A stretch of DNA of 37,885 nt from positions 1 to 37,885 of the IMG/VR virus record IMGVR_UViG_3300046011_003262; one strand, given 5' to 3'. The stretch comes from a virus. This document shows, one piece after another, positions 2,159 to 31,616 of the stretch (the first letter of the stretch is position 1; each line of letters starts with the position of its first letter). Both the position numbers and the translations under genes were made by a program. The notes below the pieces were generated by a model. The model did not search any database and was not told where the DNA came from. It was given only the letters and a program-made list of their open reading frames with translations.

Positions 2159-2181
2159 AGTTTAAACGGTTACGTGTTACT
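2159..2181 (-). promoter_or_regulatory. Late promoter site A (before scaffold-capsid)
   Basis: Minus strand: palindrome-like GTAACACGTAAC (2180 to 2169), 4 bp, then -10 box TAAACT (2164-2159). No TTGACA-like -35 box. It overlaps the stop codon of the portal gene and drives the scaffold and capsid genes, the most abundantly needed head products. One of a family of matching sites at 3656, 29579 and 31595. Confidence 0.7.
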
Positions 2182-3630
2182 AATCAAATCTCCGCCATCA
2201 GAGCGGGTTAACAAGTCTTCAGCGCTGCTAACTGTCCAACCGCCTTGAGCCAGAATCTTAATGGCTTCCTCGCGGTCAATGGTGCCTTGCATTTGAGCGG
2301 CCAACACTTGCTGAACTTCCTGCGGCGTCAGCTTGGTTGCGCTGAAGTCTTTAGTAAGTGCGATCACAACTTGCTCGTTTTGCTCAACTGCATCTTGCGA
2401 CCACAGTCCTTCAAACATACCGCAATACAGAATCGCCCGCTCGAACGCCTCTTCTACGCAATTCGCCAGGGCAATAAGCCGGCTTGTTTGCTCTGCAGAA
2501 TCAATGTTAGCCTCTGTTGCTGTCTTGTCCGCAGATGCCTTGGTAGGAAATGAACCGCCAAGCGCACGAATCTTTGCTTCGTTGTCTTTGAAATATCGCT
2601 CATACCCTTCCAAGCTGATATTGGCAGCAAGGATTTCGCCGCGAGACTCTGCAGCAAATACGTTAACTGCGCCGGCGCCAGTGGCCACATAGTCGCGCCC
2701 GTTCACTGCTTTAAACTGACCCCAAGCATTCTCGTCAATGCCGTAAAAGTTAGTCGTAGGCGGTAGCATCCGCATAGCTTCTTTGTACTCTGCGCTGACC
2801 TGATACCGGTTTAATGACAGGTCGCAGATTGGCGCAAGATAACCAAGCTCTACCGGCATTGAGCCAGATTGGAATGGCTCATCTGATAGTATTTGCACTG
2901 GCAACCACTTAAGCGGCTGGTTTTTTACTGTGACATAAGAGCGCTCGCCAATTGCCATGCCGCCTTCACTTTTGACAATCTTCTGCTGGTAATAATTGCC
3001 TTCTTCATCGAGCGCGAGAATTAGGTAAGACTCAATCTTGTTGCTCAGCATCTTGTATGGATCAAACTTCAATCCAATCTCGAGCAGCATGATATAAGAC
3101 AGCTGCATCTTGCCGTTGATGCGCTCAAAATGCCAATAGATAACGTTTTCACGTGGGTATTGTTTGATGGTTGCTCGCGGGCTTAGCTGTGCAGCATCCG
3201 CCATAGACAACTCAGTTAATGGTAGGTCAGACAATCCGCGATAATCAGAGACTAAAACGTGCCATTTGACAGCTAAGGCGTTAGCGATTGATTCAGACAT
3301 TGAAGAGCGCAAAGATAAGCCGTCACCGTCTGCGTCTTCTTCCAAATACGATAACCGGTCAGGCAGCTCAACATCAGCGGCGTTTGGATTGAGCTTGCCA
3401 ACTAATGACTTGAGCGTCTGCCCTGGGATTTCGTCAAACTCTGCGCCGTCAATATACTGACTGTATCGAATCTTCGCTTGCTGGCTTGAGCTGTCCAATG
3501 ATGACGGGTGAGGCAGTAACTTTTCGCGCTCAGCTTTTACAAATGGCGAACCTTTGATGCAGACTCGAATCTTCCGGATTTCATTTTCCATCAGCGCTGC
3601 TTCAGGGTGCTTTGTAATATTTTCCAGCAT
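2170..3630 (-). CDS. Portal protein (DUF4055-like)
   Basis: A 486-residue protein in the usual portal size range and position next to the MuF-like and scaffold genes. Long helical segments, a central charged region and the C-terminal 'EVQQVLAAQMQGTIDREEAIKILAQGGW' type segment are as in DUF4055 phage portal-like proteins. Portals form the dodecameric ring at one capsid vertex through which DNA is packaged. The ATG at 3630 has GAGG 7 bases upstream. A late promoter (3656-3678) lies in the gap before it, so portal expression can be raised apart from the terminase genes. Family assignment is by pattern memory; a profile search would settle it. Confidence 0.82.
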   Translation of the reverse strand: MLENITKHPEAALMENEIRKIRVCIKGSPFVKAEREKLLPHPSSLDSSSQQAKIRYSQYIDGAEFDEIPGQTLKSLVGKLNPNAADVELPDRLSYLEEDADGDGLSLRSSMSESIANALAVKWHVLVSDYRGLSDLPLTELSMADAAQLSPRATIKQYPRENVIYWHFERINGKMQLSYIMLLEIGLKFDPYKMLSNKIESYLILALDEEGNYYQQKIVKSEGGMAIGERSYVTVKNQPLKWLPVQILSDEPFQSGSMPVELGYLAPICDLSLNRYQVSAEYKEAMRMLPPTTNFYGIDENAWGQFKAVNGRDYVATGAGAVNVFAAESRGEILAANISLEGYERYFKDNEAKIRALGGSFPTKASADKTATEANIDSAEQTSRLIALANCVEEAFERAILYCGMFEGLWSQDAVEQNEQVVIALTKDFSATKLTPQEVQQVLAAQMQGTIDREEAIKILAQGGWTVSSAEDLLTRSDGGDLISNT

Positions 3631-3655
3631 GGCTCAGCCTCAATTCGTTTTGTCA

Positions 3656-3678
3656 AGTATAGCTTGGTTATGCGTAAC
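3656..3678 (-). promoter_or_regulatory. Late promoter site D (before portal)
   Basis: Minus strand: GTTACGCATAAC palindrome (3678-3667), 5 bp, then -10 TATACT (3661-3656). No -35 hexamer. It lies in the 51-bp gap between the MuF-like gene and portal. Confidence 0.72.
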
Positions 3679-3681
3679 CAA

Positions 3682-4833
3682 TCAACCGCCATCAAGTGCC
3701 ATTAGCTCTGCAACGGTTAGTGGCCTGCCAGACAAGTCGTTAAATTGCGTAATTGAAACTTTTCCAGACATGAATAGCTCGGCGCGTTTCTTCCCCAGCG
3801 CCGATTGAATAAACCAAGTGGGCTGCTTTTCTAGCCAGCTATCGTATGGCGTGTATGGCACCTGACCAGCTTTGAACGCATTGGAGTCTTTGCGCCCTTT
3901 GTAGACTGGCTTTGTTGGCGTCGATGGTGTCGCGATACCTTCCGCCCTTTCTTCTGCTCGCGCGTCTCGGCGCTGGTCTAGTGTTTCCTTTTTGGCGTTG
4001 TATGCTTTTTCAGCCCCTCGTCCCTCTTTACCGCCAACCGCTGCTCTTGTTTCGACGTCCTGCATGGCTATATCTGGGAGCCACTGGCTGCGGCAACCAT
4101 AATGCGCTGGAAGCGATGGGCGCTTTGGGTCTGATATTTTCCAGCGCTTGCCGTCTCTGCCGGCGCAAAGGGTGGTGGTTCTATTGTCGAGGGTCGCAAG
4201 ATAAATAACCTCATCAACATCATTGTCGATAAACATCGCTTCACGAGCATTCACCGCATAATGCTGAACCCCAGTTCTAGCCAAAGCCTCAGCTTCATTC
4301 TGTAACATGCCATCAGTCGCGATACGCATTTGCTGAGCCATCTGGTTGACTGTCAGCCCTTGTGAATATCCAGCCTTCACGATTGAATCATAAACATCAG
4401 CGTGCCGCGCGTTGTAGGCTTTGACGAATTCAGCCCACGTTCCGGCATCGACCTTTTGACCTTGCGTCAGGCTAAGTAGTGATTTGTTGATATAGCTAAC
4501 AATCTTCTCGTCAGCAGGCGTCGATAACTTCACCGACGCAGCCGAGCCAACTAAACCGGCATAATATCCGGCGTCATAAATGGCTAAATCTTCCATTTCT
4601 TTGGTGACTTCAGCCCATCCAGCCGAATCAATCTCAGTAACAGCTTTGCGGATCTGCGCAGTGACTTGGTTTAGCTTTGTAATGCTGGTGATGTTTTCCG
4701 CATCCAACAAAATAAGACGCGCTGCACGATATGCCTCGTCAAGTGTCGGAAATATTTTTGACTTGAGCAGGCCGGCGGCTAGTCTACCCAGATAAACGGT
4801 TCTGCGCTCGGTGTCGTTTATGATGTTATTCAT
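3682..4833 (-). CDS. Minor head protein, MuF / SPP1 gp7-like
   Basis: A 383-residue protein with the MuF-type signature: residues about 186-250 carry 'ARTGVQHYAVNAREAMF', then 'TLDNRTTTLCAGRDGKRW' and 'PSLPAHYGCRSQWLP'. The Cys, His-Tyr-Gly-Cys arrangement is characteristic of the family (PF04233). These proteins bind portal and enter the capsid in small numbers, and in some phages are ejected with DNA. It starts at 4833, overlapping the preceding small gene by 8 bp (ATGAATAA), so translation is coupled. It precedes the portal gene, the reverse of the common portal-then-MuF order. Confidence 0.88.
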   Translation of the reverse strand: MNNIINDTERRTVYLGRLAAGLLKSKIFPTLDEAYRAARLILLDAENITSITKLNQVTAQIRKAVTEIDSAGWAEVTKEMEDLAIYDAGYYAGLVGSAASVKLSTPADEKIVSYINKSLLSLTQGQKVDAGTWAEFVKAYNARHADVYDSIVKAGYSQGLTVNQMAQQMRIATDGMLQNEAEALARTGVQHYAVNAREAMFIDNDVDEVIYLATLDNRTTTLCAGRDGKRWKISDPKRPSLPAHYGCRSQWLPDIAMQDVETRAAVGGKEGRGAEKAYNAKKETLDQRRDARAEERAEGIATPSTPTKPVYKGRKDSNAFKAGQVPYTPYDSWLEKQPTWFIQSALGKKRAELFMSGKVSITQFNDLSGRPLTVAELMALDGG

Positions 4834-5017
4834 CTATCGCATCCAATAAAGCTCTTGCTAGTAATCTTATGAGCATATCACAATCTCCTTCATACGGCTG
4901 ACCATTAGCCAGCATCCGAATCTGAGTGAAGCAGATGATATGCGCCTCTTCTGGCTCAATGTCGTTTGGCAGATAAACAACCAAGTGCGGTTGATGGTCT
5001 GATAGGTTATCTGCCAA
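4826..5017 (-). CDS. Small acidic protein between terL and MuF gene, TTG start
   Basis: A 63-residue protein read from a TTG at 5017, 6 bases after GGGGA. The open frame extends farther upstream into terL, but no better start with a ribosome site is seen. It overlaps the end of terL by 11 bp and the start of the next gene by 8 bp, a compact coupled arrangement. The product (LADNLSDHQPHLVVYLP...) is acidic, leucine-rich at the C-terminus and without recognised domain. The frame is confined to the gap between two real genes, which favours a true gene. Confidence 0.6.
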   Translation of the reverse strand: MADNLSDHQPHLVVYLPNDIEPEEAHIICFTQIRMLANGQPYEGDCDMLIRLLARALLDAIDE

Positions 5018-6630: not shown

Positions 6631-6651
6631 CGGCACAGCCTCTAGGTTAAC

Positions 6652-6664
6652 GAGGCACTGCCTC
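6652..6664. promoter_or_regulatory. Perfect inverted repeat just upstream of terS
   Basis: GAGGCA-C-TGCCTC, a 6+1+6 perfect palindrome, 22 bp before the terS start codon. Candidate binding site for a regulator or for TerS itself; no direct evidence distinguishes these. Confidence 0.4.
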
Positions 6665-9090: not shown

Positions 9091-9478
9091 CGCGCACCTC
9101 CAAAGACTCTGCCAAATACTTGGCATCACGCAGCACCTCGTAAGGTATGCGCTCAAATGGTGATGGGTGATTATCGTAATTGTCGTGAATATGGTTGTAA
9201 TCACTGCCAACAATCTTTGTCGTTACTCGCTGCTGCCAATCGTACTTGATTTCAGTTGGCTGCGTAATTCTGATGCTGTCGTGCGTGCATCCGCCGTTAA
9301 ACGGCAAATTTTGCAGCGCGTCATTATCATCAAACTTTGGATGACTTGACTGCACGTAGGCGTAAACGTTCCACATCCACTTGCTGCCGTCATGCCAAGC
9401 TTTAGCGCTTACAGAGTGCGTTAACTCACGCACAAAAAAGAACTCGCAAGATGGGTTTGGTTTTTCGTTAAATTTCAT
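9080..9478 (-). CDS. Hypothetical early protein (132 residues)
   Basis: Begins MKFNEKPNPSCEFFFVRELTHSVS at 9478, where ATGA overlaps the stop of the 42-residue ORF; the nearest ribosome-site-like run (AAGAAGGG) is 10 bases off, so coupling is likely. The sequence is rich in Trp, His and Asp and looks like a soluble beta-rich protein (SKWMWNVYAYVQSS). The C-terminus 'PFERIPYEVLRDAKYLAESLEV' is helical. No family recognised. Confidence 0.65.
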   Translation of the reverse strand: MKFNEKPNPSCEFFFVRELTHSVSAKAWHDGSKWMWNVYAYVQSSHPKFDDNDALQNLPFNGGCTHDSIRITQPTEIKYDWQQRVTTKIVGSDYNHIHDNYDNHPSPFERIPYEVLRDAKYLAESLEVRDGL

Positions 9479-9603
9479 TTCACTGTACCCTTCTTGTGCT
9501 GCGCATAACGACATTTAGCCGCATCAACACCGGCCACTAAACACGCCAGCCATAACCAGCGATACGTTTTATCTTTACCCCAAACTGCGTAACGTGTTGC
9601 CAT
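9475..9603 (-). CDS. Small Trp-rich protein (42 residues)
   Basis: ATG at 9603, GAGG 9 bases upstream. Product MATRYAVWGKDKTYRWLWLA then CLVAGVDAAKCRYAQHKKGTVK: a hydrophobic middle that could be a short membrane-associated helix, flanked by basic residues. It fills the space between two genes and ends in an ATGA overlap with the next, which supports it as a real gene. Function unknown. Confidence 0.55.
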   Translation of the reverse strand: MATRYAVWGKDKTYRWLWLACLVAGVDAAKCRYAQHKKGTVK

Positions 9604-9604
9604 A

Positions 9605-9850
9605 TTAATAATCCTCGCTCAGTGAGTTATATTCGTCTTGTTCATCGCTTTCGTAATCGCTGTCAGGCGTCAGCATGTCGTAAAGATTAACCGCGTTGAT
9701 GCCGGTTAACTTGGTCACCTTATGACCATCGCTAAACAGCTCAATTACCGGCCTGTCGTTTGGCTCGCTATAACCCCACGCATTAAAGCCGAAAATGCCC
9801 TTGCTGGTTTCCAGCTCATACGTGCCGTCGTTGTCTTTTCTTAATTTCAT
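9605..9850 (-). CDS. Small acidic-tailed hypothetical protein
   Basis: 81 residues from the ATG at 9850 (GGAG 7 bases upstream). The longer open frame to 9961 is rejected because it runs into the GTGACATG repeats of the candidate origin and has no ribosome site. The N-terminal half is predicted beta (KLRKDNDGTYELETSKGIFGFNAWGY); the last 20 residues are strongly acidic (DSDYESDEQDEYNSLSEDY). It is the first gene downstream of the candidate origin. Family not recognised. Confidence 0.65.
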   Translation of the reverse strand: MKLRKDNDGTYELETSKGIFGFNAWGYSEPNDRPVIELFSDGHKVTKLTGINAVNLYDMLTPDSDYESDEQDEYNSLSEDY

Positions 9851-13087: not shown

Positions 13088-14550
13088 TTCGTCAACTCCA
13101 TCTGGATGCGCCGCGCTTCGTTAAAGTCGGCAGGCGTTGGCTTTCTATTTTCCCTAGCGGCCGCAGTGATCGCCGCCCACTGGCTCGCCTTACCCATCCC
13201 ACGACGCATACCAAGCGCAACTAGGTCGCGCAATGTACGCGCACTGCCTTGCTCTTTGCGTTGCTGCTTTCTAACCAATGACAGGTCTATTTTTTCCAAC
13301 TCGCCATCAGATTCGGTTATCTTGCGGATTTTCTTTTCGATGACCGCGCCGCAATATGGGCACTTGTCAGGCCCAGGCAAGAACACCGCATAACATGAAC
13401 CGCACTGCTGCACATTAACGTCTGGATCTTCATCTTTCTTTTTGCGCTTTCCTTTCACATGACCAAGCAGCGACCAATCACGCGACTGGCAAGGAAGGCC
13501 ATGCTTTAAGATGCAGCCGGCGTGGTCAAGTATCACTGCAGGCTCGGGCTTTCTACGCAGCGCACGGAACACCATCTGAAGGTAACGCGCTTCCGATTGA
13601 GTTGGGCGCAACAGAATGCAGCACTCCAGCGTTACATCACGACCAACCTGTGCAGACAGGTCAAAACCTTCGATGACCAGCTCGCAGTTGACCAGAACAA
13701 GCACTCGGCGATCAGCTAAATCCTCGCAGATTGTTTTCAGCTCTTGCTCAGTTGTGCTTGCGTCAACATGCGCAGCCGGAATGCCAGCACTTTTAAATGC
13801 CTCTGCTGTATGCTTGCTGTGAGCAACGTTGCAGCAGTACACAACTGCACGCTTGCCACTGGCAAAACGCTTGTAATGCGCAACAGCGTCACCAACGATT
13901 GTAGGCTTATCCATAGCTGCGGCTAAGTCGCCTATGTTGTAATCACCAGCAAGCGTTTTGACGGCAGACAGGTCAGGCTTAACTGGCGTTGTGTATGCAA
14001 CGTATTCAGACAGCCTGCCTTGCTCAATCAGCCACTTTGTTGACTTGGCCTCAATGATGATTTCAAACAAATCACCAAGGCTTTTCCCATCAAGCCGAAC
14101 TGGAGTGCCAGTTAACCCTATGACGATAGCACCAGCAGACCGCGCCCAAGATATGACTGTTTGAAACATATTGCCTTTCGCAAGGTGCGCTTCATCAATA
14201 AACAAAATCTTTGGTGGCTTCAGTGAATCAAGCCGACTGTGAACTGTGCCGATTGTGCCAACCTGTATCGGTTGAGTTGTTCGCATCTTACCGCTTGTGA
14301 TTAGCCCATGCTCTATCTTGGCAGACCAAAATGACTTGCTTGTTTGCCGCAACAGGTTTTTCCTGTGAACCAGAAACCATACGCTTGCGTTACCATCACG
14401 CGCACGAGCTTGCTGCGTAATGTGGGCAGCAACAACAGTTTTGCCAAATGCTGGAGAAGCAACGCCAAGCACTGACTTAATGCCAGACTTTAAAGCCTCT
14501 CTTAGCTTAGCAACAAACTCTTCTTGATCTTCGTAAAGTTGAAAGCTCAT
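13084..14550 (-). CDS. SF2 DEAH-box helicase with C-terminal zinc ribbon
   Basis: 488 residues. Motif I is SPAFGKT (32-38), motif II DEAH (near 120), motif III 'GLTGTP', and motif VI is the unusual 'QMVFRALRR' in place of QxxGRxxR. A CxxC...CxxC zinc ribbon ('QCGSCYAVFLPGPDKCPYCG') lies near residue 390, followed by a basic tail. This is the phage SF2 helicase type seen in replication modules with prim-pol and VRR-NUC genes; it may remodel forks or recombination intermediates. The ATG at 14550 is preferred over GTG at 14553 because GGAGG lies 4 bases before the ATG but only 1 from the GTG. Coupled to the regulator gene by TGATG. Confidence 0.92.
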   Translation of the reverse strand: MSFQLYEDQEEFVAKLREALKSGIKSVLGVASPAFGKTVVAAHITQQARARDGNASVWFLVHRKNLLRQTSKSFWSAKIEHGLITSGKMRTTQPIQVGTIGTVHSRLDSLKPPKILFIDEAHLAKGNMFQTVISWARSAGAIVIGLTGTPVRLDGKSLGDLFEIIIEAKSTKWLIEQGRLSEYVAYTTPVKPDLSAVKTLAGDYNIGDLAAAMDKPTIVGDAVAHYKRFASGKRAVVYCCNVAHSKHTAEAFKSAGIPAAHVDASTTEQELKTICEDLADRRVLVLVNCELVIEGFDLSAQVGRDVTLECCILLRPTQSEARYLQMVFRALRRKPEPAVILDHAGCILKHGLPCQSRDWSLLGHVKGKRKKKDEDPDVNVQQCGSCYAVFLPGPDKCPYCGAVIEKKIRKITESDGELEKIDLSLVRKQQRKEQGSARTLRDLVALGMRRGMGKASQWAAITAAARENRKPTPADFNEARRIQMELTK

Positions 14551-14723
14551 CACGCCTCCAGAGCTGCCGCAACAGCTTCAAGCGTTGCGATTGTTGGGTT
14601 TGCAGTTCCTGCTTTAATAGCAAGCAGCGTATTGTAAGCAACTCCTGTTTTTCTTGAGACTTCCATCAGGTTTGCAGTTTTGAGTTTTTCGCTGATTTCT
14701 TGATACGCTTTCGATATATTCAT
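14550..14723 (-). CDS. XRE/Cro-like regulator
   Basis: 57 residues, essentially one XRE helix-turn-helix: 'ANLMEVSRKTGVAYNTLLAIKAGTANPTIATLEAVAAALE'. The ATG at 14723 has GGAG 8 bases upstream; the longer frame to 14765 crosses the promoter. As the first gene of the leftward early operon it is placed to repress its own and the divergent rightward promoter through the operator near 14757-14778. No larger CI-like partner is present, so it is more likely a timing regulator than a lysogeny switch. Confidence 0.85.
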   Translation of the reverse strand: MNISKAYQEISEKLKTANLMEVSRKTGVAYNTLLAIKAGTANPTIATLEAVAAALEA

Positions 14724-14741
14724 TTTATTGGCTCCATTGTG

Positions 14742-14771
14742 TTGACATTGCCAGTGTATACGCATTATATT
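14742..14771 (+). promoter_or_regulatory. Rightward early promoter
   Basis: TTGACA (14742-14747), 18-bp spacer, TATATT (14766-14771). A near-consensus sigma70 promoter 28 bp before the exonuclease ATG, and the strongest promoter match in the window. Confidence 0.8.
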
Positions 14772-17116: not shown

Positions 17117-17467
17117 ATGAAACAACTAGCATCATATTTTGGAGTATCGCTAAGCGCTGCTTACAAATGGAGCGCTGAAACAATACGGCGCAAGACTATC
17201 ATCATGGAGTCAGGAGCTGAGCCACAAATCATCAAGCTGATTGGTGAGATTAGTCAGCTGTGTTACATCTTTGATTGTAAGCATGTTGAAGGTGATAAGT
17301 GGCTAAAACATGCTGACATTTCTTTCAGCAATGATTGGCTTAGCTTAAAAATAACTCAGCCGCATGGTCGCACAATATTCAGCTTGTCGCCAATCAACCT
17401 TAACTTATCAACCGCAGTCGCAGAGCTGCAGAAAGTTAAACAGACTTTAGAGTCATTTATTTACTAA
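17117..17467 (+). CDS. HTH-type small regulator-like protein
   Basis: 116 residues. The first 25 (MKQLASYFGVSLSAAYKWSA...) have a plain helix-turn-helix pattern, 'LASYFGVSLSAAYKW', as in Cro/excisionase-like proteins. The rest is a soluble alpha/beta domain ending 'LQKVKQTLESFIY'. GGAGGAACA precedes the ATG. Upstream is a GCCAGT/ACTGGC hairpin (17084-17100) without a T-run. DNA binding is inferred. Confidence 0.65.
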   Translation: MKQLASYFGVSLSAAYKWSAETIRRKTIIMESGAEPQIIKLIGEISQLCYIFDCKHVEGDKWLKHADISFSNDWLSLKITQPHGRTIFSLSPINLNLSTAVAELQKVKQTLESFIY

Positions 17468-17481
17468 TAAGGGGAATGAAA

Positions 17482-18156
17482 ATGAAATACAAATTTACAG
17501 GGAAAACAAAATTACACCTCGGGCACACACTGCATCAGATCGTATGCGTCACTGCGTTTGCACATATTTCCTCCGGCGAAATTGGCGGGTGGATTGAAAA
17601 AGAAGAAAATTTGAGCCAGTCCGACAGTGCTTGGGTGCACGGCAATGCTCGTGTGCAAGGCGATGCTCGTGTGTACGGCAATGCTCGTGTGCAAGGCGAT
17701 GCTCGTGTGTACGGCGATGCTCATGTGTACGGCAATGCTCGTGTGCAAGGCGATGCTCGTGTGTACGGCGATGCTCATGTGCACGGCAATGCTCGTGTGT
17801 ACGGCGATGCTCATGTGTACGGCAATGCTCGTGTGTACGGCAATGCTCATGTGCACGGCGATGCTCATGTGTACGGCGATGCTCATGTGTACGGCAATGC
17901 TCGTGTGTTAATTGGTCAGTACAAAGTAAAAGATGTTTGCTTATTGCAAGTTCAAGGCTCCAAGCATCCGGTGTTCAGCCCCGATTTTGTTCACATTAAA
18001 ATTGGTTGCCAAAAGCGCACGCCGCGAGACTGGCAAGAAAATTTTGAATCGGTAGGTAGATTAAATGATTATTCTGATGAGCAGATTGTCGAATATAAGC
18101 TGTACATTGATTTGTTTTCTGCTGTTATTTCAGAGCATCAACAGAAGCAGGTATAG
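17482..18156 (+). CDS. Hexapeptide-repeat left-handed beta-helix protein
   Basis: 224 residues. Residues about 53-142 are 15 perfect-length hexapeptides G(N/D)A(R/H)V(Y/Q/H), each a face of a left-handed beta-helix, so about five turns. They are flanked by an N-terminal cap (ISSGEIGGWIEKEENL) and a C-terminal domain (LIGQYKVKDVCLLQVQ... and 'RDWQENFESVG...YSDEQIVEYK'). Such 'GNARVYGDAxVYG' proteins recur in phages and prophages with unknown function. The ATG at 17482 has GGGGA 6 bases upstream, better than 17476. The DNA is an 18-bp tandem repeat (17641-17910), prone to unit gain and loss. Confidence 0.85.
   Translation: MKYKFTGKTKLHLGHTLHQIVCVTAFAHISSGEIGGWIEKEENLSQSDSAWVHGNARVQGDARVYGNARVQGDARVYGDAHVYGNARVQGDARVYGDAHVHGNARVYGDAHVYGNARVYGNAHVHGDAHVYGDAHVYGNARVLIGQYKVKDVCLLQVQGSKHPVFSPDFVHIKIGCQKRTPRDWQENFESVGRLNDYSDEQIVEYKLYIDLFSAVISEHQQKQV
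17641..17910 (+). repeat. 18-bp tandem repeat, 15 units
   Basis: Fifteen 18-bp units of GGC(A/G)AtGCTC(G/A)tGTGyAn type, varying at codons 2 (AAT/GAT), 4 (CGT/CAT) and 6 (TAC/CAA/CAC/TTA). Variation is confined to those codons, with some multi-unit blocks repeated in order, as expected from duplication of blocks. Because the unit length is a multiple of three and stop-free, several other frames are also open through it; they are artefacts. Confidence 0.95.
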
Positions 18157-19421: not shown

Positions 19422-19574
19422 ATGAGCGATACAACATTCTGGTCGGATTTCATCCTGACATTATTTGCTGTAGCTTTATCGGTGCTTTATGCCATGAATT
19501 ACCCTGGCGAAGCAAAAAAGAAGCCTAGAAAGGCGAAACGTGATTTTAAGCGGGAATGGGAGGAGATAGGATGA
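19422..19574 (+). CDS. Small membrane-anchored basic protein (50 residues)
   Basis: ATG 19422, stop in ATGA overlap with the next gene. N-terminal membrane helix (SDFILTLFAVALSVLYAM) followed by a strongly basic tail (AKKKPRKAKRDFKREWEE). The architecture suggests a cytoplasmic basic tail held at the membrane. Not recognised. Confidence 0.6.
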   Translation: MSDTTFWSDFILTLFAVALSVLYAMNYPGEAKKKPRKAKRDFKREWEEIG

Positions 19575-19846
19575 AAACACAATCAAAAATGACTCAGCTG
19601 ATTCTGCAGCAGCCTGTGACGCTGACCAATAAGCAGGTGGCAGAGTTGTTGGGCACTACCGCTGATTGCGTCAGGCTGGCACGGTATCGTTACGGACTAC
19701 CGGTGCCGAAGCGTGACAAAGGCTATGCCGAAAAGATTGCTGCAAAGTTTGGCTGTATCGATGCTAAAGCAGTTGCCGCTGAGATTGGCTGCAGCCCGAT
19801 TTATGTGCGTCAGGTGTGGAGGCAAATTAGAAATGCTGCCAATTGA
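19571..19846 (+). CDS. Tandem-HTH protein 1 (candidate late regulator)
   Basis: 91 residues from ATG 19571, GGGAGGAGAT upstream. Two helix-turn-helix-like units: 'TNKQVAELLGTTADCVRLARYRYG' and 'DAKAVAAEIGCSPIYVRQVWRQIRN'. The C-terminal unit resembles that of the next gene ('VA.E.GC....V....' and both proteins end AAN), so the two may be paralogs. As the penultimate gene of the early operon it is a candidate activator of the palindromic late promoters; no direct evidence. Confidence 0.75.
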   Translation: MKTQSKMTQLILQQPVTLTNKQVAELLGTTADCVRLARYRYGLPVPKRDKGYAEKIAAKFGCIDAKAVAAEIGCSPIYVRQVWRQIRNAAN

Positions 19847-20105
19847 AACTCAAAATATGATTGCTAGCGCATACGCAAGCGGGATGCCACTAAAGGTCAT
19901 ATCAAGCAAGTATGGGTGTGAAGCATCAACGGCATGCTGCATAGCCAAGCGCAAGGGAGTTAAATTAAGAAAGCAAGGGGGAAGCGTCAGGCATAAAAGA
20001 ATACTTGAGCTTCTGTCGTCAGGGATGCGCGCCATTGACGTTGCAAATGAAGTGGGCTGCGCATTGCAGACTGTGTACAACGCAAAGAAGAGAGCCGCTA
20101 ATTAG
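19833..20105 (+). CDS. Tandem-HTH protein 2 (candidate late regulator)
   Basis: 90 residues from ATG 19833 (GGAGG 10 bases upstream), overlapping the gene before by 14 bp. Two HTH units: 'ASGMPLKVISSKYGCEASTACCIAKRKG' and 'SSGMRAIDVANEVGCALQTVYNAKKRA'. Each has the plan of homeodomain-like or resolvase-type HTHs. Small basic proteins encoded last in an early operon are often late-gene activators. The final codons and stop lie within the palindromic terminator 20093-20110. Confidence 0.75.
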   Translation: MLPIETQNMIASAYASGMPLKVISSKYGCEASTACCIAKRKGVKLRKQGGSVRHKRILELLSSGMRAIDVANEVGCALQTVYNAKKRAAN

Positions 20106-24632: not shown

Positions 24633-25552
24633 TAAATCAAGCCCTCAATTTGTAGTGTTGCCGAGCATATAACCGGCCCATCGATTGTGTTAATGTAATT
24701 TCTGTAATAACCGTAAACAATCGTATCATCATCAGATGAATCAGTGCCAACCCATACGCATGGCGTGGTTGCAAGACCTGAAAGATTGCGTAACACGTAA
24801 CCAATTCTACCCTTATCTATGCGAATGTCAAAATCCACCAACTTAGCAGTGCGCCGAGGGGCAATGATAAAGTTTCCAAATTCGTCACGCTCTTTACGTG
24901 AGAAGTCTAGAAGTTGCAGTGATGTGCCATAACACGCCACACCAAGCACAAGTTGCGGCCCCATTACCATTGTGCCAACTGAAACTGATGAATCTCCATC
25001 AAAAGTTACGGTTGTAGTCGCTGCAGAGTATGAAGGCAAATCAAGCACAATAAATTCTGAGCGTATGACGATAGGCGCAAAAAAGTATTGATACCAATCA
25101 ACAACCTGTGAATTGTCTTGTAGGTTTACTGTTTCGTTGTAAACCTCGCCATCAACTGGATCATCCATGACAATAGTTACTTCAGACACGCCCGCCATAT
25201 TGAACGCTGCGACAGATGTTGCAATTCTGCCAGGTGTCACTTCAACAACCAGTGGCGCGGCTGACTCCGTTGATACTGTGCCGACAACTTGGTCAAACAT
25301 ACGATAGCGGTTGGTGTAGCTAACCTCAATCCACGTTGGAACAGCTTTAGCTGCCCCGATATCAGGCTGGTCCGTGGTGGATGGCGTTGCGACAACCTCA
25401 TAAATCTTATGTGTCGATGTCATGATGCGCCGGTCACCGGTGTTGTACGTGCCGGCAGTCCAAAGCACTTCTCCTGCAGCGGAGTCAGGCTCAGGGATTG
25501 TACTGCTAGTTAATGCTGAGCCAATCAAGTTAACCGGCTGAATTACTCTCAT
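24632..25552 (-). CDS. Tail tip / baseplate-type protein
   Basis: 306 residues, directly after tape measure, where phages encode distal-tail and hub proteins. 'AGEVLWTAGTYNTGDRRIMTSTHKIYEVVATPSTTDQPD' resembles the carbohydrate-binding-like or chitinase-type fold segment found in several such tail proteins; later parts are beta-rich. Starts in ATGA overlap with the tape measure gene. Precise role (hub, distal tail) is not determined. Confidence 0.7.
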   Translation of the reverse strand: MRVIQPVNLIGSALTSSTIPEPDSAAGEVLWTAGTYNTGDRRIMTSTHKIYEVVATPSTTDQPDIGAAKAVPTWIEVSYTNRYRMFDQVVGTVSTESAAPLVVEVTPGRIATSVAAFNMAGVSEVTIVMDDPVDGEVYNETVNLQDNSQVVDWYQYFFAPIVIRSEFIVLDLPSYSAATTTVTFDGDSSVSVGTMVMGPQLVLGVACYGTSLQLLDFSRKERDEFGNFIIAPRRTAKLVDFDIRIDKGRIGYVLRNLSGLATTPCVWVGTDSSDDDTIVYGYYRNYINTIDGPVICSATLQIEGLI

Positions 25553-28500
25553 GCGATTGTCCTTGTATCTAATCCGTCAAGTTCGAATCTTTGCAGTGTA
25601 TCAGCTGTTTTTGCTGTGTGCTTGGCGTTTGACTCGCTGGCGTGCAGTATGTTTTTCAGTAAATCTACCATCTCGCGTGTTACCGGCTCGTTGTCAGCGG
25701 CCACTCTATCAGGCTGGGTAGGTGGCACCCAAACGCGATCAAGTGGCTTATTAATTTCGACAATCTGCTGGCCAACCTGCAGAATTGCCGACTCAACGCG
25801 ATTGATTGCATCAATCTGAGCGGTGCCAGTCTCAACTTGCAGTGACTGCGCTTTTTCAAGAGATGCGTAAAACTCACTAAGCGCCTCGCTCATGGTCAGC
25901 ATTCTGTCATCAATACCTAACAGTGCATTCAGTTGCTTCTGCGCTTCTGACAGCTGCTTGTCGATTTCGGCGACTTGTTCATCATGCAGCTTTTGCGCTT
26001 GCTCTGCGGCTTGGTCAAGTTTGAGCAGCTGAGTTTCGTAATATTCCGATGCCTCTTTTGTCTGCAGCTCTAGCCATTGCAATTGTGATTTGGCGCCGGC
26101 AAGTTGACCGCCAACGATACCGCCGATTCCTGCAGCTTGGTTTCGTGCAACAGCCATGGCGCGTTGTTGGTCGAATGCAGAGCCAAAGCTGCCACCACCA
26201 GAATTAATCGCGCCGAGCACAGATTGAAGCTCTGACTGGTCAGGCAGCAATCCGGCTTTTGCCTCGTTGAAAATCTGAGTTAAACGCCGGAATGGGTCCT
26301 CGGCTGCACCAGTAGAACCAAGGAAGCCATTGATAACGCTATTCAAGCCTTCGAGCTTGCTGATGTATTGATCAACAGCCTGAGATTGCCGCTCATAACC
26401 TGCAATGACAGAATCACGCTGAGACTCTAACGCCTCGCGCTCTTTATCGATGGCAGACAGTTTTAAATCAAGCTCAGTTGCTAACCGGTCTTTTTCTGCT
26501 TGTGCAGAGTCTTGCAGTTTGCCGAAAGCGTTTTGCGCTGCGTCCATTGCAGCAGCAGCCGCATCCCGAGCAGAGTTTGCAGCCGCATCTTGTGCTGCCG
26601 CCAATTCGCGCTGAGCTGTTGCTGCGTCCTCTGCTGCGTAAATAGACAACAGCATTGCCCGCAACGTTTCGTCAGTAGCCTCAAGCTCCATCTGCCGGCG
26701 TAATGCCAACGCCTCAGCAGACTGCCCAAGCGCATCATATAGGCGCAGTTGCAAATCTAAACCTTGCTGTTTCAGTGCCGCGGCTTTTGCCTCTGCTTCT
26801 TTCTGCGCTGCTTCTGCTGCAGCTTCAGATGCTGACCTCTGTGCTTCTAACGCTGCCAAGTATTGATCCATGCCTGGCACTAACTGCATCAGTGCAGCAA
26901 ACTGCGCCTGACCTGCAGCGGTAGTTAAATCAATGGCGTCAACCAGAGCGCGGAAACCTTCGCGTGTCGTCGGCATGGTTGTATTGATTGCTGCGAATTG
27001 CTCTGCCAGCTGTTGCTGTAGCATTAATTGCCGCTCAGTCTCTGAGTAGAAAGACTGATAATACTGCGTTGACAGCGCGGATAATTGGTCAATGCCACCA
27101 GCCAGATTAACGATGTTAGTCGCCGCTTCTGCAGCCGCTTTGCCGGTTAAGCCGTAGTTAATCCCGAGCGATTTGGTGATTGACTCAACCGCAGCCATAT
27201 TGCCGGCAACACGGTTTAACGTATCAAGCAGTGTTTCGCCTTCAGCTTGCAATCCGCCAAGCATATCGCCAAAGACAGCCGAAACCATGCTTGATGTCGT
27301 GCCGGCAACCCACTCTTGAATGGCAGCATCAATCTCTGTTTGGCTCTTGTCTTTTACTGACAGATTGAAAGATGCCGTGAAGTTTTTCAGCACTTCATCA
27401 GCGCCGGTAATGCCGATGCTTTTCGCGGCAGATGCCAATGCGTCTTGAATATCATCAAAAGCCGCATCGATGCTTGATGTGTCGAATGCTTCAGTGCTTG
27501 TTCTGCGCTTAGTGCCGCCAAATAGTGCGCGTTTTTTGCTCTCCTGTGTAGTGATAGAGCCAGATACGTCGCCACCACCTAAAGCCAGCGACAGGTCTTG
27601 CGCGGTAGTCTTGTAAGATGTGCCAAACAGCCCGCCGCCAGAAATCTTGTTAACAACGCCAGCAATTGCAGCGCCTGCAGCAATGATTGGCAATGCAGCG
27701 CCGATACCAGTCATGATTTCGCCGGCAGCAAACAGATTGCCGGTTAACCCAAAAGCCGTACCGACCTGACCGGAACCAAGCAAAGCAGCTGAGCCGGTGA
27801 AGCCTGAACCTAAAGCGCCAAGACCGCCGGCAATCCCGCCCAAGCTACCAAGTGAGCTCAGCCCGCCGGCGCCAGTTGCAGCGCTTGCTCCGCCAGGCAA
27901 CATGCCGCCCATGCCAAGACTAACCATAATCGGCTTAGTCAAAGCCATGTGCGCCATTTCAGCCAGCAGCCGTTTGAAGGCGTTTTTCATGCCGTCAACG
28001 ACAGATTCAAAGCCGTCAAAAGCATTCAACCATGCATCAGCAAATGCTGCCTCGATGCGCTCTGCTGCTTTTTCGCTGACTGTGGCAACAGTCTCCATGC
28101 CCTTGCTTGTTTTTTCTTCCCACTCGAGCGACGCTTCAATTTCTTCTTCAAGTCTGGCGATGCGAGTTTTGTCGATTTCTTCGAGCATTTCCAAACCTTC
28201 GAAATGCTCATCCATCGCAGCTGTCATATCGTCGAATGCTTTTTTGCCAATCTTGCCGACTGATTCAGCCGTCTTGCCGTATTTCTCTAACCGGTCAATG
28301 CCGAAATCAAGCGACTTAGCCTGACCATCATAAGCAGCCCGCACCTTATCAGCGCCGTCTAGCTGGGCTTTAAATGTATCGATTGATGCTTGGCGCTCAT
28401 CCATAATTTTTTGGATCATCGCAGCGCGGGCATCGTTTGTCTTAGCAAAGTCAGCAGTTGGATCGTAAACCGCTGTGAGCGGATTGATTGCGTTAGCCGC

Positions 28501-29553
28501 CATCTTGCCGTAGATGATTAAGCGGTCAACGTAGGCAGCAACCTCAACAGTTGCCAGCTGCAAAAATGCCTTGATGTTTTCCGGCAGACTGACAAATGCG
28601 TCAACGATCAACTCAGCGCTCTTTGCCATGTCGATATACCAAAACTTGCCAGCATTGGTGAACAGCTTTCCGACTTCTTCAAGGATGGCTTCGATGGCAA
28701 ATCCAAACCCAGAAAATTTACTGATTGCGGCATCGACGTATGCGCCAATCTGACCTGAGCCAATAGCGGCTGACAGGCTGCTGATTGCATCTGTTGCGGC
28801 TCTTACTGACGCCTCAATAACTCCGCCTGTGCCGGCAGCGCTGACGGTTCGGAATAAGCCATCCCAAGAATCTTCAAGGTTGCTGATTGCGCCGTCTAGC
28901 GTATTCATCCGGTTAGCCATTGCGCCGGCGAATTCGTTATTGCCAAGGCCCATCAAATAGCCTTCAATTTCATCAGCTGACTTTCTGACGGTGGTTGTCA
29001 TGCCTCGGAATGTGAAAGAAACACGATCGCCTTCTGATGATGCCTTGATGCCGAACTCTTTCAGGCGCTCAAACTCGCCAACAGTCGCATCTGCAACAGC
29101 TTCCACCATCTGAGACAAGTCTTTGCCCATCGCCGCGGCAGTGTTGCCGTATGATGTCAGTGCCTTTTCAGATGGAGTTAAGCCAAGGTTTACAAGCTGA
29201 GTAAATGCTTTGGTTGCTTGTGCCAGGCTATAAGGTGTCGTGGTGGCGAAATCTTCGATGGCTTTAAATGCGACTGCCGCTTCTTTAGCGCTGCCTGTGG
29301 CTGTGATTAATCCGGCGTTTAACACGTCAAACTCTCGCGTGACCGATACCAGCTTGCTTAGTGCCGCAGTGGTCGATACTAAACCGCCAATCGCAGCAGC
29401 AACACCGGCAAAGCCTTTTGACACGCTTGCCATTGATGAAGATACAGCGCGGTCAGTTTTCGCGCCTTGCTTGGCCAGGTCATCAAGCCCGCGCTCAGCT
29501 TTGAGTAATCCGCTTGTGTCTGCAACGAAACCCAGCCTTGCTAAATCCGCCAT
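25549..29553 (-). CDS. Tape measure protein
   Basis: 1334 residues, the longest gene. N-terminal part has the TMP signature 'VTREFDVLNAGLITATGSAKEAAVAFKAIEDFATTTPYSLAQATKAFTQLVNLGLTPSEKAL'; then hydrophobic Gly/Ala stretches (about 530-640, e.g. 'GMGGMLPGGASAATGAGG'), and long coiled coils (about 880-1280). It sets tail length; by the usual ~0.15 nm per residue rule the tail would be of ordinary siphovirus length (about 200 nm). GGAG lies 7 bases before the ATG, and its own promoter and a terminator lie upstream. Confidence 0.95.
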   Translation of the reverse strand: MADLARLGFVADTSGLLKAERGLDDLAKQGAKTDRAVSSSMASVSKGFAGVAAAIGGLVSTTAALSKLVSVTREFDVLNAGLITATGSAKEAAVAFKAIEDFATTTPYSLAQATKAFTQLVNLGLTPSEKALTSYGNTAAAMGKDLSQMVEAVADATVGEFERLKEFGIKASSEGDRVSFTFRGMTTTVRKSADEIEGYLMGLGNNEFAGAMANRMNTLDGAISNLEDSWDGLFRTVSAAGTGGVIEASVRAATDAISSLSAAIGSGQIGAYVDAAISKFSGFGFAIEAILEEVGKLFTNAGKFWYIDMAKSAELIVDAFVSLPENIKAFLQLATVEVAAYVDRLIIYGKMAANAINPLTAVYDPTADFAKTNDARAAMIQKIMDERQASIDTFKAQLDGADKVRAAYDGQAKSLDFGIDRLEKYGKTAESVGKIGKKAFDDMTAAMDEHFEGLEMLEEIDKTRIARLEEEIEASLEWEEKTSKGMETVATVSEKAAERIEAAFADAWLNAFDGFESVVDGMKNAFKRLLAEMAHMALTKPIMVSLGMGGMLPGGASAATGAGGLSSLGSLGGIAGGLGALGSGFTGSAALLGSGQVGTAFGLTGNLFAAGEIMTGIGAALPIIAAGAAIAGVVNKISGGGLFGTSYKTTAQDLSLALGGGDVSGSITTQESKKRALFGGTKRRTSTEAFDTSSIDAAFDDIQDALASAAKSIGITGADEVLKNFTASFNLSVKDKSQTEIDAAIQEWVAGTTSSMVSAVFGDMLGGLQAEGETLLDTLNRVAGNMAAVESITKSLGINYGLTGKAAAEAATNIVNLAGGIDQLSALSTQYYQSFYSETERQLMLQQQLAEQFAAINTTMPTTREGFRALVDAIDLTTAAGQAQFAALMQLVPGMDQYLAALEAQRSASEAAAEAAQKEAEAKAAALKQQGLDLQLRLYDALGQSAEALALRRQMELEATDETLRAMLLSIYAAEDAATAQRELAAAQDAAANSARDAAAAAMDAAQNAFGKLQDSAQAEKDRLATELDLKLSAIDKEREALESQRDSVIAGYERQSQAVDQYISKLEGLNSVINGFLGSTGAAEDPFRRLTQIFNEAKAGLLPDQSELQSVLGAINSGGGSFGSAFDQQRAMAVARNQAAGIGGIVGGQLAGAKSQLQWLELQTKEASEYYETQLLKLDQAAEQAQKLHDEQVAEIDKQLSEAQKQLNALLGIDDRMLTMSEALSEFYASLEKAQSLQVETGTAQIDAINRVESAILQVGQQIVEINKPLDRVWVPPTQPDRVAADNEPVTREMVDLLKNILHASESNAKHTAKTADTLQRFELDGLDTRTIA

Positions 29554-29578
29554 GCTATAACTCCAAAAACTTTTGTTC

Positions 29579-29601
29579 AGTATAACCGCGTAACGCGTTA
29601 C
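29579..29601 (-). promoter_or_regulatory. Late promoter site C (before tape measure)
   Basis: Minus strand: perfect 12-bp palindrome GTAACGCGTTAC (29601-29590), 5 bp, then -10 TATACT (29584-29579). No -35 hexamer. It lies just upstream of the tape measure ribosome site and after the terminator at 29740-29763. Between them, 29602-29739 holds no gene but has an orphan AAGGAGG (29680-29674) and an ACTGAT/ATCAGT inverted repeat (29637-29653). Confidence 0.75.
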
Positions 29602-29739
29602 TTGCCATAGCGTGGAAAGCAGACTATATTCGATTTACTGATTGCACATCAGTTGAGCCAGATTAACTGTGATCCTCCTTATCCGATGTTGTGTCTGGAA
29701 TTACTCTTTAATGTGCCCGCAAATTCTGTGTCATCTCAA

Positions 29740-29763
29740 TAAAAAAGCCCCTAACTAGGGGCT
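29740..29763 (-). terminator. Intrinsic terminator after second chaperone-like gene
   Basis: Minus strand: AGCCCC-TAGTTA-GGGGCT (29763-29746) followed by TTTTTT-ATTG. The stop codon of the preceding gene lies in the stem. It separates the tail-chaperone unit from the tape measure unit. Confidence 0.85.
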
Positions 29764-30158
29764 TTCTCTTTTGCTGAACCTCGCAATCTTTGCTTAATCA
29801 GCCTCGTTTCTTCTTTGCGGTGCTGCTGAATCAAATCCTCATCATCAGTTTCATACGGTGGCGGCATATTCGCATCAGATGCGCGGTGATGCATGCTGAC
29901 GTAAGCGCGAGACAAGCTCATCAATACATCAGCCTCCCACCAATCAATTTCCTCGCCTGAAAGCTCTTTGAAAGCCTTTATTTCCTGCCAAGATATTGAC
30001 GTTATGCCACCGGCGCCTTGAGAAACCATTCCGCACCGGTTGAGCATCTCAAGTAGATAATCACCTTGATCAACTGGTGGCAATATCCGGTGAATGTGAT
30101 GCTCATGGAATTGGTCGAGCCGACTTAATCTTTCTTTGTTTGATTCGCTATCTGGCAC
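29751..30158 (-). CDS. Second tail assembly chaperone-like protein
   Basis: 135 residues from GTG 30158 (VPDSESNKERLSRLDQFHEHH...), between the first chaperone gene and tape measure, where gpT/second chaperone proteins are usually encoded. No Shine-Dalgarno precedes the GTG, yet the frame stays open upstream to 30212, abutting the end of the first gene in the -1 frame. That suggests a frameshift product or a non-canonical upstream start, but the junction (CTTTTTAAGGCATAAAA) offers no canonical slippery heptamer: the -1 frame meets TAA there. The C-terminus is highly charged. Confidence 0.72.
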   Translation of the reverse strand: MPDSESNKERLSRLDQFHEHHIHRILPPVDQGDYLLEMLNRCGMVSQGAGGITSISWQEIKAFKELSGEEIDWWEADVLMSLSRAYVSMHHRASDANMPPPYETDDEDLIQQHRKEETRLIKQRLRGSAKEKAPS

Positions 30159-30205
30159 GGCGTGGAGCCATGCCAGATGTTGAACGTAAAGAATTAGGTC
30201 GGCTT

Positions 30206-30610
30206 TTATGCCTTAAAAAGTTCAGACCGGTCAGAGCATGCGGCGTCAACCTGCTCTTTAATCCATGGGTATTTCAGATACAGCGACTGAGCTGCGGCGA
30301 CAGAGAATGGCAGAGCTTTGCCATCCTCTTGGATGCCTGACCATGACAGCGTGCACTTAGCCAGAAGTTCAGCACCGCGCTTTTCCATTTCTTCCAAGTC
30401 AACATCGTCTTTCTTGGTTTTCTTCAGCATGTTTTGTTTCACGCGAGCGCGGATTTCAGCTTTGAATACTTTAGAGTCTGAGCCAGCAACGACGATTGCC
30501 ATAGGCTCATCTTTATCGTTAACCAGCGTTTCGCCGGTGGCAGGGTGCTTTAATTCAACGGTTACGCCTTTTTCAGCAAGCGAAACCACATCAAGATTGG
30601 ACAAATCCAT
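30206..30610 (-). CDS. Tail assembly chaperone
   Basis: 134 residues: 'MDLSNLDVVSLAEKGVTVELKHPATGETL...MAIVVAGSDSKVFKAEIRARVKQNM' is a familiar phage tail-chaperone type encoded between tail tube and tape measure genes. It binds tape measure during tail assembly. ATG 30610 with GAGG upstream; a weak late-type promoter (30684-30706) and a terminator (30707-30733) lie before it. Confidence 0.8.
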   Translation of the reverse strand: MDLSNLDVVSLAEKGVTVELKHPATGETLVNDKDEPMAIVVAGSDSKVFKAEIRARVKQNMLKKTKKDDVDLEEMEKRGAELLAKCTLSWSGIQEDGKALPFSVAAAQSLYLKYPWIKEQVDAACSDRSELFKA

Positions 30611-30683
30611 AATAACCTCATCAAGTTAGCATCCAGTGAATTAGTGGCAGGCGGTTGGATGAGTCCCGCTTTTCAGGCACGTT

Positions 30684-30706
30684 ACCCTAGCCGGTTACAG
30701 TGTAAC
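30684..30706 (-). promoter_or_regulatory. Possible late promoter site E (before chaperones)
   Basis: Minus strand: GTTAC-ACT-GTAAC (30706-30694), a perfect inverted repeat but with a 3-bp centre, then after 4 bp TAGGGT, a poor -10. It lies directly after a terminator and before the chaperone gene. Probably a weaker member of the late promoter family. Confidence 0.45.
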
Positions 30707-30733
30707 AAATAAAAACGGGGCAATGAAGCCCCG
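30707..30733 (-). terminator. Intrinsic terminator after 116-residue virion gene
   Basis: Minus strand: CGGGGC-TTCATT-GCCCCG (30733-30716) then TTTTTATTTG. Ends the tail tube unit. Confidence 0.85.
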
Positions 30734-30753
30734 TAATTAGTAACGCGCAACCA

Positions 30754-31104
30754 TTAAGCATTAGACAGCAATACGGCCTTAATGCCTGAACCGCCTGTTA
30801 CGGTAACAGTGCCTTGCAAAAACGCACTGATTGAATCCAGCGGAATTGCAGCGCGAGCACCAGCGCCGATTGATGGCACGGTGTAACCAGACGCAACGCT
30901 AACCAAGCCAACACCTGGCACAGATACGTTAGTGCCGGCAGCGCCATCAATCAGTGGAGTTAATGCGCCAGCAGTCACGTTATCCAATACCAGAACCTGA
31001 CCAGCGCCAGCTTTGTAGACCAGCGTGTCAGAGCTTGATAATGTGGTCACGGTCAATGCCCGCGAGCCCGGGCCGGTCATTAGTGTTTCAGCAATGACAG
31101 CCAT
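30754..31104 (-). CDS. Small virion protein, paralog of 35575-36015 product
   Basis: 116 residues, soluble and beta-rich (VLVLDNVTAGALTPLIDG...). The C-terminal 'ARAAIPLDSISAFLQGTVTVTGGSGIKAVLLS' aligns clearly with 'SVAIPLHSIREWLKGSVTLTGCAGCKAYIVT' of the protein at 35575-36015, and the 'LTVTTLSSSDTLVY' start with 'LSVTTLTGADSFIF'. So the phage carries two divergent copies, one after the tail tube gene and one in the head block. Structural role likely; family not named. Confidence 0.75.
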   Translation of the reverse strand: MAVIAETLMTGPGSRALTVTTLSSSDTLVYKAGAGQVLVLDNVTAGALTPLIDGAAGTNVSVPGVGLVSVASGYTVPSIGAGARAAIPLDSISAFLQGTVTVTGGSGIKAVLLSNA

Positions 31105-31105
31105 G

Positions 31106-31552
31106 CTACACCTCCACGATCACGGAGTTGATTTCAATCTGCACAGTAGAGCTAACCATGCTGTTTGCAGAGCCTGGCGCTTTCGTGTAAGAGAAAATCT
31201 TGCCGGTGAAATAGTCGATGCTGCCATCTTGGTAGGTAACACGGAAACTGTGTTCAGTGTTTTTGTTGATGCCTGTAACACCCAAGGACAAAACAGCCTG
31301 ACCAGCATCATCTGCATCACGCGCCAATGAAACTGACATAGAGCCGTTGTTGATGAAGCCTTTGTATTTTTCAGTGATACCGGTTGCTAATGGCTGGTGA
31401 GTAACAACCTCAGCAGATGCGCCATATTCTGGCAGGTCGGTTACTTCGCCAACGTTTACGAAAGTTAAAGCACCAAAACCAGCAGCATCAACTGTGGCAG
31501 GCTGAGCGGCGACTACTGCAAGCAGGGTGCCGGTGGAAGTCAATACTGACAT
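31106..31552 (-). CDS. Major tail tube protein
   Basis: 148 residues: 'GALTFVNVGEVTDLPEYGASAEVVTHQPLATGITEKYKGFINNGSMSVSL' and 'TEHSFRVTYQDGSIDYFTGKIFSYTKAPGSANSMVSSTVQIEINS' match the typical siphovirus tail tube fold. ATG 31552 has GAGGG 7 bases upstream. A strong late promoter (31595-31616) is dedicated to it, suitable for the most abundant tail protein. Confidence 0.9.
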   Translation of the reverse strand: MSVLTSTGTLLAVVAAQPATVDAAGFGALTFVNVGEVTDLPEYGASAEVVTHQPLATGITEKYKGFINNGSMSVSLARDADDAGQAVLSLGVTGINKNTEHSFRVTYQDGSIDYFTGKIFSYTKAPGSANSMVSSTVQIEINSVIVEV

Positions 31553-31594
31553 AATAAAACCCTCAAATTAGTGATTGATCAATCATCCGATTAC

Positions 31595-31616
31595 AGTATA
31601 AACGGTTACGTGTAAC
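31595..31616 (-). promoter_or_regulatory. Late promoter site B (before tail tube)
   Basis: Minus strand: GTTACACGTAAC (31616-31605), 4 bp (CGTT), then -10 TATACT (31600-31595). No -35 hexamer. It lies in the 68-bp gap before the tail tube gene. Confidence 0.78.

Follow-up and report, generated by a model that had tools for sequence, protein, structure and literature searches.

A family of promoter-like units with an operator-like dyad between the -35-like and -10 hexamers precedes virion genes of a viral genome and its relatives

The DNA analysed here, called the window, is the whole of the 37,885-base virus record IMGVR_UViG_3300046011_003262, and its subject is a family of four promoter-like units in which a palindromic, operator-like site lies a few base pairs (bp) ahead of the -10 box. 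Because its first and last 127 bases are identical at 126 positions, the window is probably a complete genome that is read circularly. The head and tail genes are encoded on the minus strand and include those for the head scaffolding protein (1407..2111, PHROG 206), the portal protein (2170..3630, PHROG 145), the tape measure protein (25549..29553, PHROG 1538) and the major tail (tube) protein (31106..31552, PHROG 158). An earlier note, made from the letters alone, had described four minus-strand sites with a palindrome followed 4-5 bp downstream by TAAACT or TATACT, each before a virion gene. We observed the letters and coordinates as described, and the downstream genes match the scaffold, portal, tape measure and major tail protein families.

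All parts of the four units lie on the minus strand. The scaffold promoter carries the operator GTAACACGTAAC (2169..2180), which includes the TAA stop codon of the portal gene (2170-2172), and the -10 box TAAACT (2159..2164). The other three share the -10 box TATACT, found at 3656..3661 in the portal promoter (operator GTTACGCATAAC, 3667..3678), at 29579..29584 in the tape-measure promoter (operator GTAACGCGTTAC, a perfect palindrome, 29590..29601) and at 31595..31600 in the tail-tube promoter (operator GTTACACGTAAC, 31605..31616). The tape and tube palindromes are intergenic; in the scaffold and portal units, the end of the preceding gene falls within the unit or directly beside it. When chance was estimated, the bare palindrome GTWACRYGTWAC with at most one mismatch was found nine times in the window against 0.58 expected, a count reached by none of 100 shuffles. 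The full unit (GTWACNNGTWAC with at most one mismatch, a gap of 3-6 bp and TAWACT) was found four times, against a mean of 0.015 and a maximum of 1 in 400 order-1 Markov surrogates. Chance does not account for the four sites, which are real, and many equally good matches within genes, the case that the earlier note had named as speaking against the family, did not arise for the full unit. The palindrome is degenerate: each half, GTWAC, is nearly symmetric by itself and the W positions vary, so that an inverted and a direct repeat cannot be told apart.

The remaining five matches to the bare palindrome in the window start at 21076, 24790, 9589, 30740 and 33542. Two (21076 and 24790) are inside open reading frames (ORFs) and one (9589) is at the start of an ORF of 42 amino acids, while the sites at 30740 and 33542 have no -10 box at the usual distance. 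The site at 30740..30751 (minus strand, GTTGCGCGTTAC; region 30733-30751) is upstream of the tail assembly chaperone gene and a few bases upstream of a terminator-like stem. It is present in four of the six records compared, the window included, with the counterparts GTTACGCGTTAC in G002 and L105 and GTTACGCATAAC in L022, and was not found in G001 and G003 (G and L numbers are our handles for records). This copy is possibly a roadblock or an accessory site. The site at 33542..33553 (minus strand, GTTGCGCGTAAC) immediately follows a TATACT and lies at the end of the ORF 33515-33994, and its counterpart in G002 is a perfect palindrome.

With the -10 box set at -12 to -7 and a gap of 4 bp, the palindrome covers roughly -28 to -17 and is within the spacer, not in place of the -35 box as the earlier note had it. 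Its statement that a TTGACA-like box is missing also had to be given up: TTGATT is found 17 bp from the -10 box in the scaffold promoter (2182..2187) and 18 bp from it in the portal promoter (3680..3685), and ATGGCA is found at 18 bp in the tape promoter (29603..29608), all on the minus strand; the -35 of the tube promoter itself is weak (3/6). The proposed class II geometry was not borne out either, since the four sites of the window are centred near -22 and not near -41 overlapping the -35; the G003 tape site alone would be near -42, a class II-like centre. We scored the best match to TTGACA at spacers of 16-18 bp against a background taken at offsets 24-74, with significance from 20,000 random-offset draws. 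The 18 promoters of the window's type (family A) average 3.94/6 versus 2.44 (standard deviation 0.26, maximum 3.06), and a match of at least 4/6 is present in 15 of them. None of the 20,000 draws reached the observed sum, and the same was true of a second set of seven promoters (family B, described below), six of which have such a match. Near-duplicates were left out of the 18-promoter test, for example the G002 portal and scaffold promoters, the G001 scaffold, tube and tape promoters, and L003, L091, L105 and L113; L108, the G003 tape site, the orphan site of G009, the G014 site at 7841 and the G007 copies were also omitted. Thirteen more diverged promoters score 3.92 (p 5e-5), and a score of 3.57 (p 0.001) was obtained for seven tube and tape promoters. 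From the window's four promoters alone the signal is modest (3.75, p 0.011), and it becomes strong through comparison with relatives. When the spacer is varied the family A signal is 3.94 at 16-18 bp, 3.94 at 17-19 bp, 3.22 at 18-20 bp and 1.72 at 19-21 bp. The gap between the palindrome and the -10 box is 3-6 bp in the 18 promoters. Among the portal promoters it is 4, 5 or 6 bp and the spacers stay at 17-18 bp; in the G000 and G001 portal promoters the spacer is 18 bp in both and the palindrome is shifted by one base.

Twelve loci encoding portal relatives were found. The composite unit is present four times each in G000, G001 and G002, three times in G003, twice in G004 and once in G009, a different 66-kb record; it was not found in G005, G010 (a 29.8-kb record, probably incomplete), G011, G014 and G017. 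Comparison of upstream regions, which the earlier note had proposed as a check, placed the site before the orthologous portal, scaffold, tail-tube and tape genes in relatives with portal identities as low as 52%, with the site kept and the operator letters different between orthologous promoters. Pattern scans added the site-bearing records L022, L026, L088, L091, L105, L108 and L113. Many other matches of these scans are single sites in low-GC or otherwise unrelated contigs and are probably chance or parts of other systems. By eye, no such palindrome was seen before the 14 gene starts inspected in each of two Vibrio phages (42-44% portal identity), and when GTDB genomes were scanned once with a portal alignment, with two peptide patterns as seeds, none of 129 stretches was confirmed as a relative. 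In G005 the late promoter-like sequences are of another kind: the regions upstream of its portal and tape genes (L010, L038) share by eye TGTRTCTGAWT, which is placed 0-3 bp ahead of TATAMT and may be one more late motif. In the G010 tape promoter (L045) the sequence AGTGGACAGACCACT, and at position 26143 of G011 the sequence ACTGCTCCGACCACT, each stands 4 bp before TATACT, and these dyads may represent a third operator type. Elsewhere, in L076 (Vibrio phage 1.151.O, 31426-31499), four consecutive GTGAC-n5-GTCAC palindromes lie within an annotated helix-turn-helix (HTH) gene and are perhaps replication iterons.

Two relatives, L009 (48% portal identity) and G014 (45%), carry ACTGGTNNNACCAGT at the corresponding promoter position. 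G014 (L071, L072) has seven copies, six perfect and one with a single mismatch. They precede the homologues of the scaffold, portal, tail tube, tape and tail assembly chaperone genes. Further copies precede an unclassified ORF of the neck region (39142-39522, without a Pfam hit) and a gene for a C5-cytosine methylase (PF00145); the copy at the methylase gene is without a clear promoter and was left out of the -35 test. For family B (six G014 promoters and one from G017) the -35 score is 4.29/6 versus 2.47, and the G014 scaffold promoter has a perfect TTGACA. The gap from operator to -10 box is 0, 2 or 5 bp, a range of about half a helical turn, and the spacers are 16-17 bp. This sister lineage keeps the layout and has another operator. 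The family B core CTGGTNNNACCAG is also found in the fadB-pepQ gap of E. coli K-12, as TCTGGTCGTACCAGA, which we take to be a site of the FadR repressor. The four sites of the window are GTWACRYGTWAC-like and not of the FadR-regulon type CTGGTNNNACCAG, which belongs to the family B records.

The composite pattern TTGNNNNGTWACRYGTWACNNNNTAWAMT was matched nine times in the GTDB collection, where the chance expectation is roughly 7 (a rough estimate) and nine matches are unremarkable, and in 16 stretches of IMG/VR, nine of them from the window's family, one the G009 site and six others. In two unrelated records a composite TTGACA-n-GTWACRYGTWAC-n4-TAWAMT stands upstream of toxin-antitoxin operons: in L079 (Treponema) before genes for a HigB toxin (PF05015, 74 bits) and an antitoxin-like HTH protein, and in the viral record L090 before HicA (71 bits) and HicB-like (54 bits) genes. 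L077 has it upstream of a HigB-like ORF that is below the cut-off (23.0 versus 27 bits). Three Clostridia contigs (L080, L083, L085) have it upstream of similar small ORFs, which are ribbon-helix-helix-like by eye only and which in L080 and L085 gave no Pfam hit. These contigs show KSRAEYM-type or similar small ORFs behind a TTGACA / GTWACRYGTWAC / TATAAT promoter, and L080 and L083 have a second operator copy after the -10 box. In L078 the composite is flanked by a DctP gene and by an ORF that looks GntR-like by eye, and in L081, L082 and L084 it is beside other genes or no clear gene. Toxin-antitoxin operons of the HigB and HicAB class repress themselves, according to the available part of PMC7730913, and for this reason the composite fits a repressor target, perhaps one used by several protein folds.

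Late promoters with a dyad near -22 are known from phage P1, where their transcription depends on an activator and on SspA. In the available text of PMC10695390, 11 P1 late promoters are described, all with a 9-bp inverted repeat that is bound by Lpa. We compared seven of the 11, with letters from the GenBank annotation of NC_005856 (L040, L041). The annotated 9-bp "-22 region" (AAGTnACTT-like) is 4 bp from the -10 box in six of the seven and 9 bp from it in LPhot, and the -35 score of the seven is 1.71 versus a background of 2.57, that is, no -35. A search of P1 with TNACAAGTNACTTNNNNTANNNT gave 20 places with at most three mismatches versus 11 for the reversed-pattern control, and six of the seven promoters matched with 0-1 mismatch. 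The 9-bp box is apparently part of a longer TnAC-AA-GTnACTT element in these six.

We favour, at roughly even confidence, the reading that the units are sigma70 late promoters with a swappable operator that is bound by a repressor, over control by an activator of the P1 Lpa type. The promoters would be of the sigma70 type, with a TTGxxx-like hexamer, 17-18 bp and TATACT or TAAACT, and with the spacer filled by a dyad of 12-14 bp (RGTWACRYGTWACY) near -22. A dimeric DNA-binding protein seated between the hexamers would block RNA polymerase until the late phase; removal or inactivation of the protein, or its dilution over replicated genomes, would lift the block, and the late operons would then fire together. 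The sites, their conservation, the -35-like hexamers, the geometry and the sister lineage with its own operator are observations; that the promoters are active, late, protein-bound and repressed we infer. The fadB-like core, the toxin-antitoxin parallels, the -35-like hexamers and the sliding operator support a repressor: a sliding operator with fixed hexamers suggests occlusion, since fixed contacts with the polymerase should not tolerate sliding. A dimeric activator next to the -10 box had been proposed in the earlier note. A family of promoter-like units before virion genes, with a shared dyad for what is probably a dimeric protein, was borne out, and relatives have kept it; activation was weakened, because the family B site slides 0-5 bp before the -10 box and the composite occurs at toxin-antitoxin operons.

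Several observations weigh against repression. Most of the -35 matches are just 4/6, and 3 of the 18 reach only 3/6; a weak -35 suits an activated promoter as well. The promoters scored form homologous groups and are not independent samples. The TTG of the scaffold promoters doubles as a Leu codon of the portal gene, and some hexamers run into the ends of preceding genes. When 28500-37885 was scanned with the plain consensus, 7 sigma70-like promoters were found versus 10.9 in shuffles, which is no excess; the tape promoter was picked and the tube promoter missed. The G003 tape site is 24 bp upstream of TATACT and outside the spacer, and extra operator-like sites exist without a -10 box. The fadB match (two mismatches allowed in 2 kb) is one core and was equalled in 12 of 200 shuffles. 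The P1 activator site has the same position and the half-site GTnAC, and the late genes of all well-studied phages are placed under positive control in the part of PMC10695390 available to us.

Control by an Lpa-type activator is a tentative possibility. A phage protein on the GTWAC dyad near -22 would recruit or remodel the host RNA polymerase at a promoter with a poor -35, and the 4-bp distance in six of the seven P1 promoters, the TNACAAGTNACTTNNNNTANNNT matches in six of them with the 7-bp period and the GTnAC half-site of the window, the precedent of positive control just cited and the imperfect -35 hexamers of the window would all agree with this. On the other hand, -35-like hexamers are enriched in the window's family and not in P1, the family B site slides by 0-5 bp, and the Lpa family (PF25716) was matched in none of seven records, a search that is weak against distant relatives. 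A host transcription factor as the binder, FadR or a similar GntR protein for family B and another host regulator for family A, appears doubtful. The phage would then time its late genes with a host repressor, a proposal about which protein binds, and one that overlaps with the favoured reading. It is in keeping with the family B core in the E. coli fadB-pepQ gap, with a family A operator that is constant in five genomes whose HTH proteins differ in the recognition helix (by eye), and with the lack of any GntR domain match in eight phage records, two of which are partial (G007 and G017, contigs of 11-13 kb). Phage GIL01 provides a precedent in its late promoter P3, with LexA and gp7 (PMC6182141, available part). 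Against a host factor stand the near-chance count of the composite in GTDB genomes, where none of the nine matches is titled as a gammaproteobacterium, and the single fadB core with its frequency in shuffles and its presumed assignment to FadR. MerR-type activation, in which a dimer bound in the spacer distorts the DNA and aligns both hexamers, would share the position of the dyad between -35 and -10 and is very improbable: MerR-type promoters have spacers of 19-20 bp, the -35-like signal here is at 16-18 bp and appears to drop beyond, and no MerR family match was found among the 10 window proteins scanned. That the repeats reflect chance or the coding constraint of conserved gene ends is hardly credible. 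The scaffold and portal units do overlap or adjoin preceding gene ends, and the five bare palindromes lie away from such promoters, but four composites against 0.015 expected, the intergenic tape and tube palindromes, and a site that diverged phages keep ahead of the same genes, with changes in the operator letters, speak against it.

A repressor bound between the hexamers leaves room for a more specific scheme, which we regard as a long shot. In a siphophage group that is perhaps strictly lytic, the late operons would be under operators of host metabolic repressors, a FadR-type one in one lineage and that of another host regulator in the window's; replication would multiply the sites, titrate the repressor and so start the late genes, and lineages would re-target by a swap of the dyad. 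If true, this would be a replication-coupled late timer that needs no phage activator. Late promoters that look self-sufficient and share a swappable operator would be either an exception to the positive control described in the accessible part of PMC10695390 or a new P1-like system with a different anatomy. The swap of operators between relatives is in effect an experiment of nature that could help to find the regulator, and with the FadR-like variant comes the testable idea that late phage expression is gated by host metabolism.

Candidate binders were compared with the distribution of the sites by clustering of ORFs of at least 30 amino acids at E<=1e-3 across genomes. No likely regulator was distributed like the sites; only ORFs of the virion region or antisense ORFs were. 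The two HTH proteins proposed as binders in the earlier note, a tandem-HTH protein (19556..19846, plus strand) and a second one (19713..20105, plus strand, internal start likely), do not follow the sites. Related ORFs are present in G000, G001, G003, G004, G010 (partial) and G011, the last two without perfect sites, and none was detected in the site-bearing G002 at this threshold. G002 carries a different HTH-like ORF (25584-25994, by eye) at this place. The window has two separate HTH ORFs in 19556-20105; G011 has one ORF of 203 amino acids with several HTH-like units (9117-9728, by eye). A small Cro/C1-type HTH protein (14550..14765, minus strand) was rejected: its recognition helices differ among genomes that share the operator, it was undetected in G003, and its helix in G011, which is without a perfect site, is nearly the same as that of the window. 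A protein of 116 amino acids (17117..17467, plus strand) is present in all five site-bearing genomes and also in G010 and G011 without perfect sites; its helices are variable, the one in G004 (with sites) being similar to the one in G010 (without). In its structure model (mean predicted local distance difference test, pLDDT, 88) the short N-terminal helices are HTH-like, and structure comparison gave a single viral match, an unnamed one, and none in the PDB at E<=0.001. A protein of 70 amino acids at 18804 has the same spread, that is, the five site-bearing genomes plus G010 and G011. The binder may come from the host, or it may be a phage-encoded protein that was not singled out here. The window ORF 17476-18156 is made up of short GNARVQGDARVYG-like repeats, and the other frames have repeat ORFs that overlap.

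Among the matches listed from the open-licence literature, none described a regulon of this kind, as judged by titles and the starts of abstracts, and no phage-titled paper came up for the exact operator letters. Of the known systems, the Lpa (gp10) promoters of P1 resemble the window in having several separate late promoters with a dyad near -22, usually 4 bp from the -10 box, and in the half-site GTnAC with its TnAC-AA-GTnAC layout and 7-bp period. By this comparison, the -22 box of P1 may form part of a longer element, TnAC-n2-GTnAC. The P1 promoters differ in that the window family has a -35 signal at 16-18 bp, a longer dyad and no Lpa-family match, and in that another lineage among the window's relatives uses an unrelated dyad. 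Operators of the FadR (GntR) type resemble those of the family B phages, the CTGGTNNNACCAG of which equals the core between fadB and pepQ; the family B dyad, however, is in phage late promoters of records where no GntR domain was detected, and the dyad of the window is another. The autoregulated promoters of HigBA and HicAB share the order of -35, GTWACRYGTWAC in the spacer and -10 in two records, but each of these is a single promoter of the operon itself, whereas the window has four before structural genes. The late promoter P3 of phage GIL01, which host LexA together with phage gp7 represses according to the available part of PMC6182141, is likewise a late phage promoter with in-promoter sites for a repressing host regulator. 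The same part of that source describes GIL01 as temperate, and as using LexA with gp7 plus an activator, gp6; by analogy, control by a repressor and by an activator may act together on one promoter of the kind described here.

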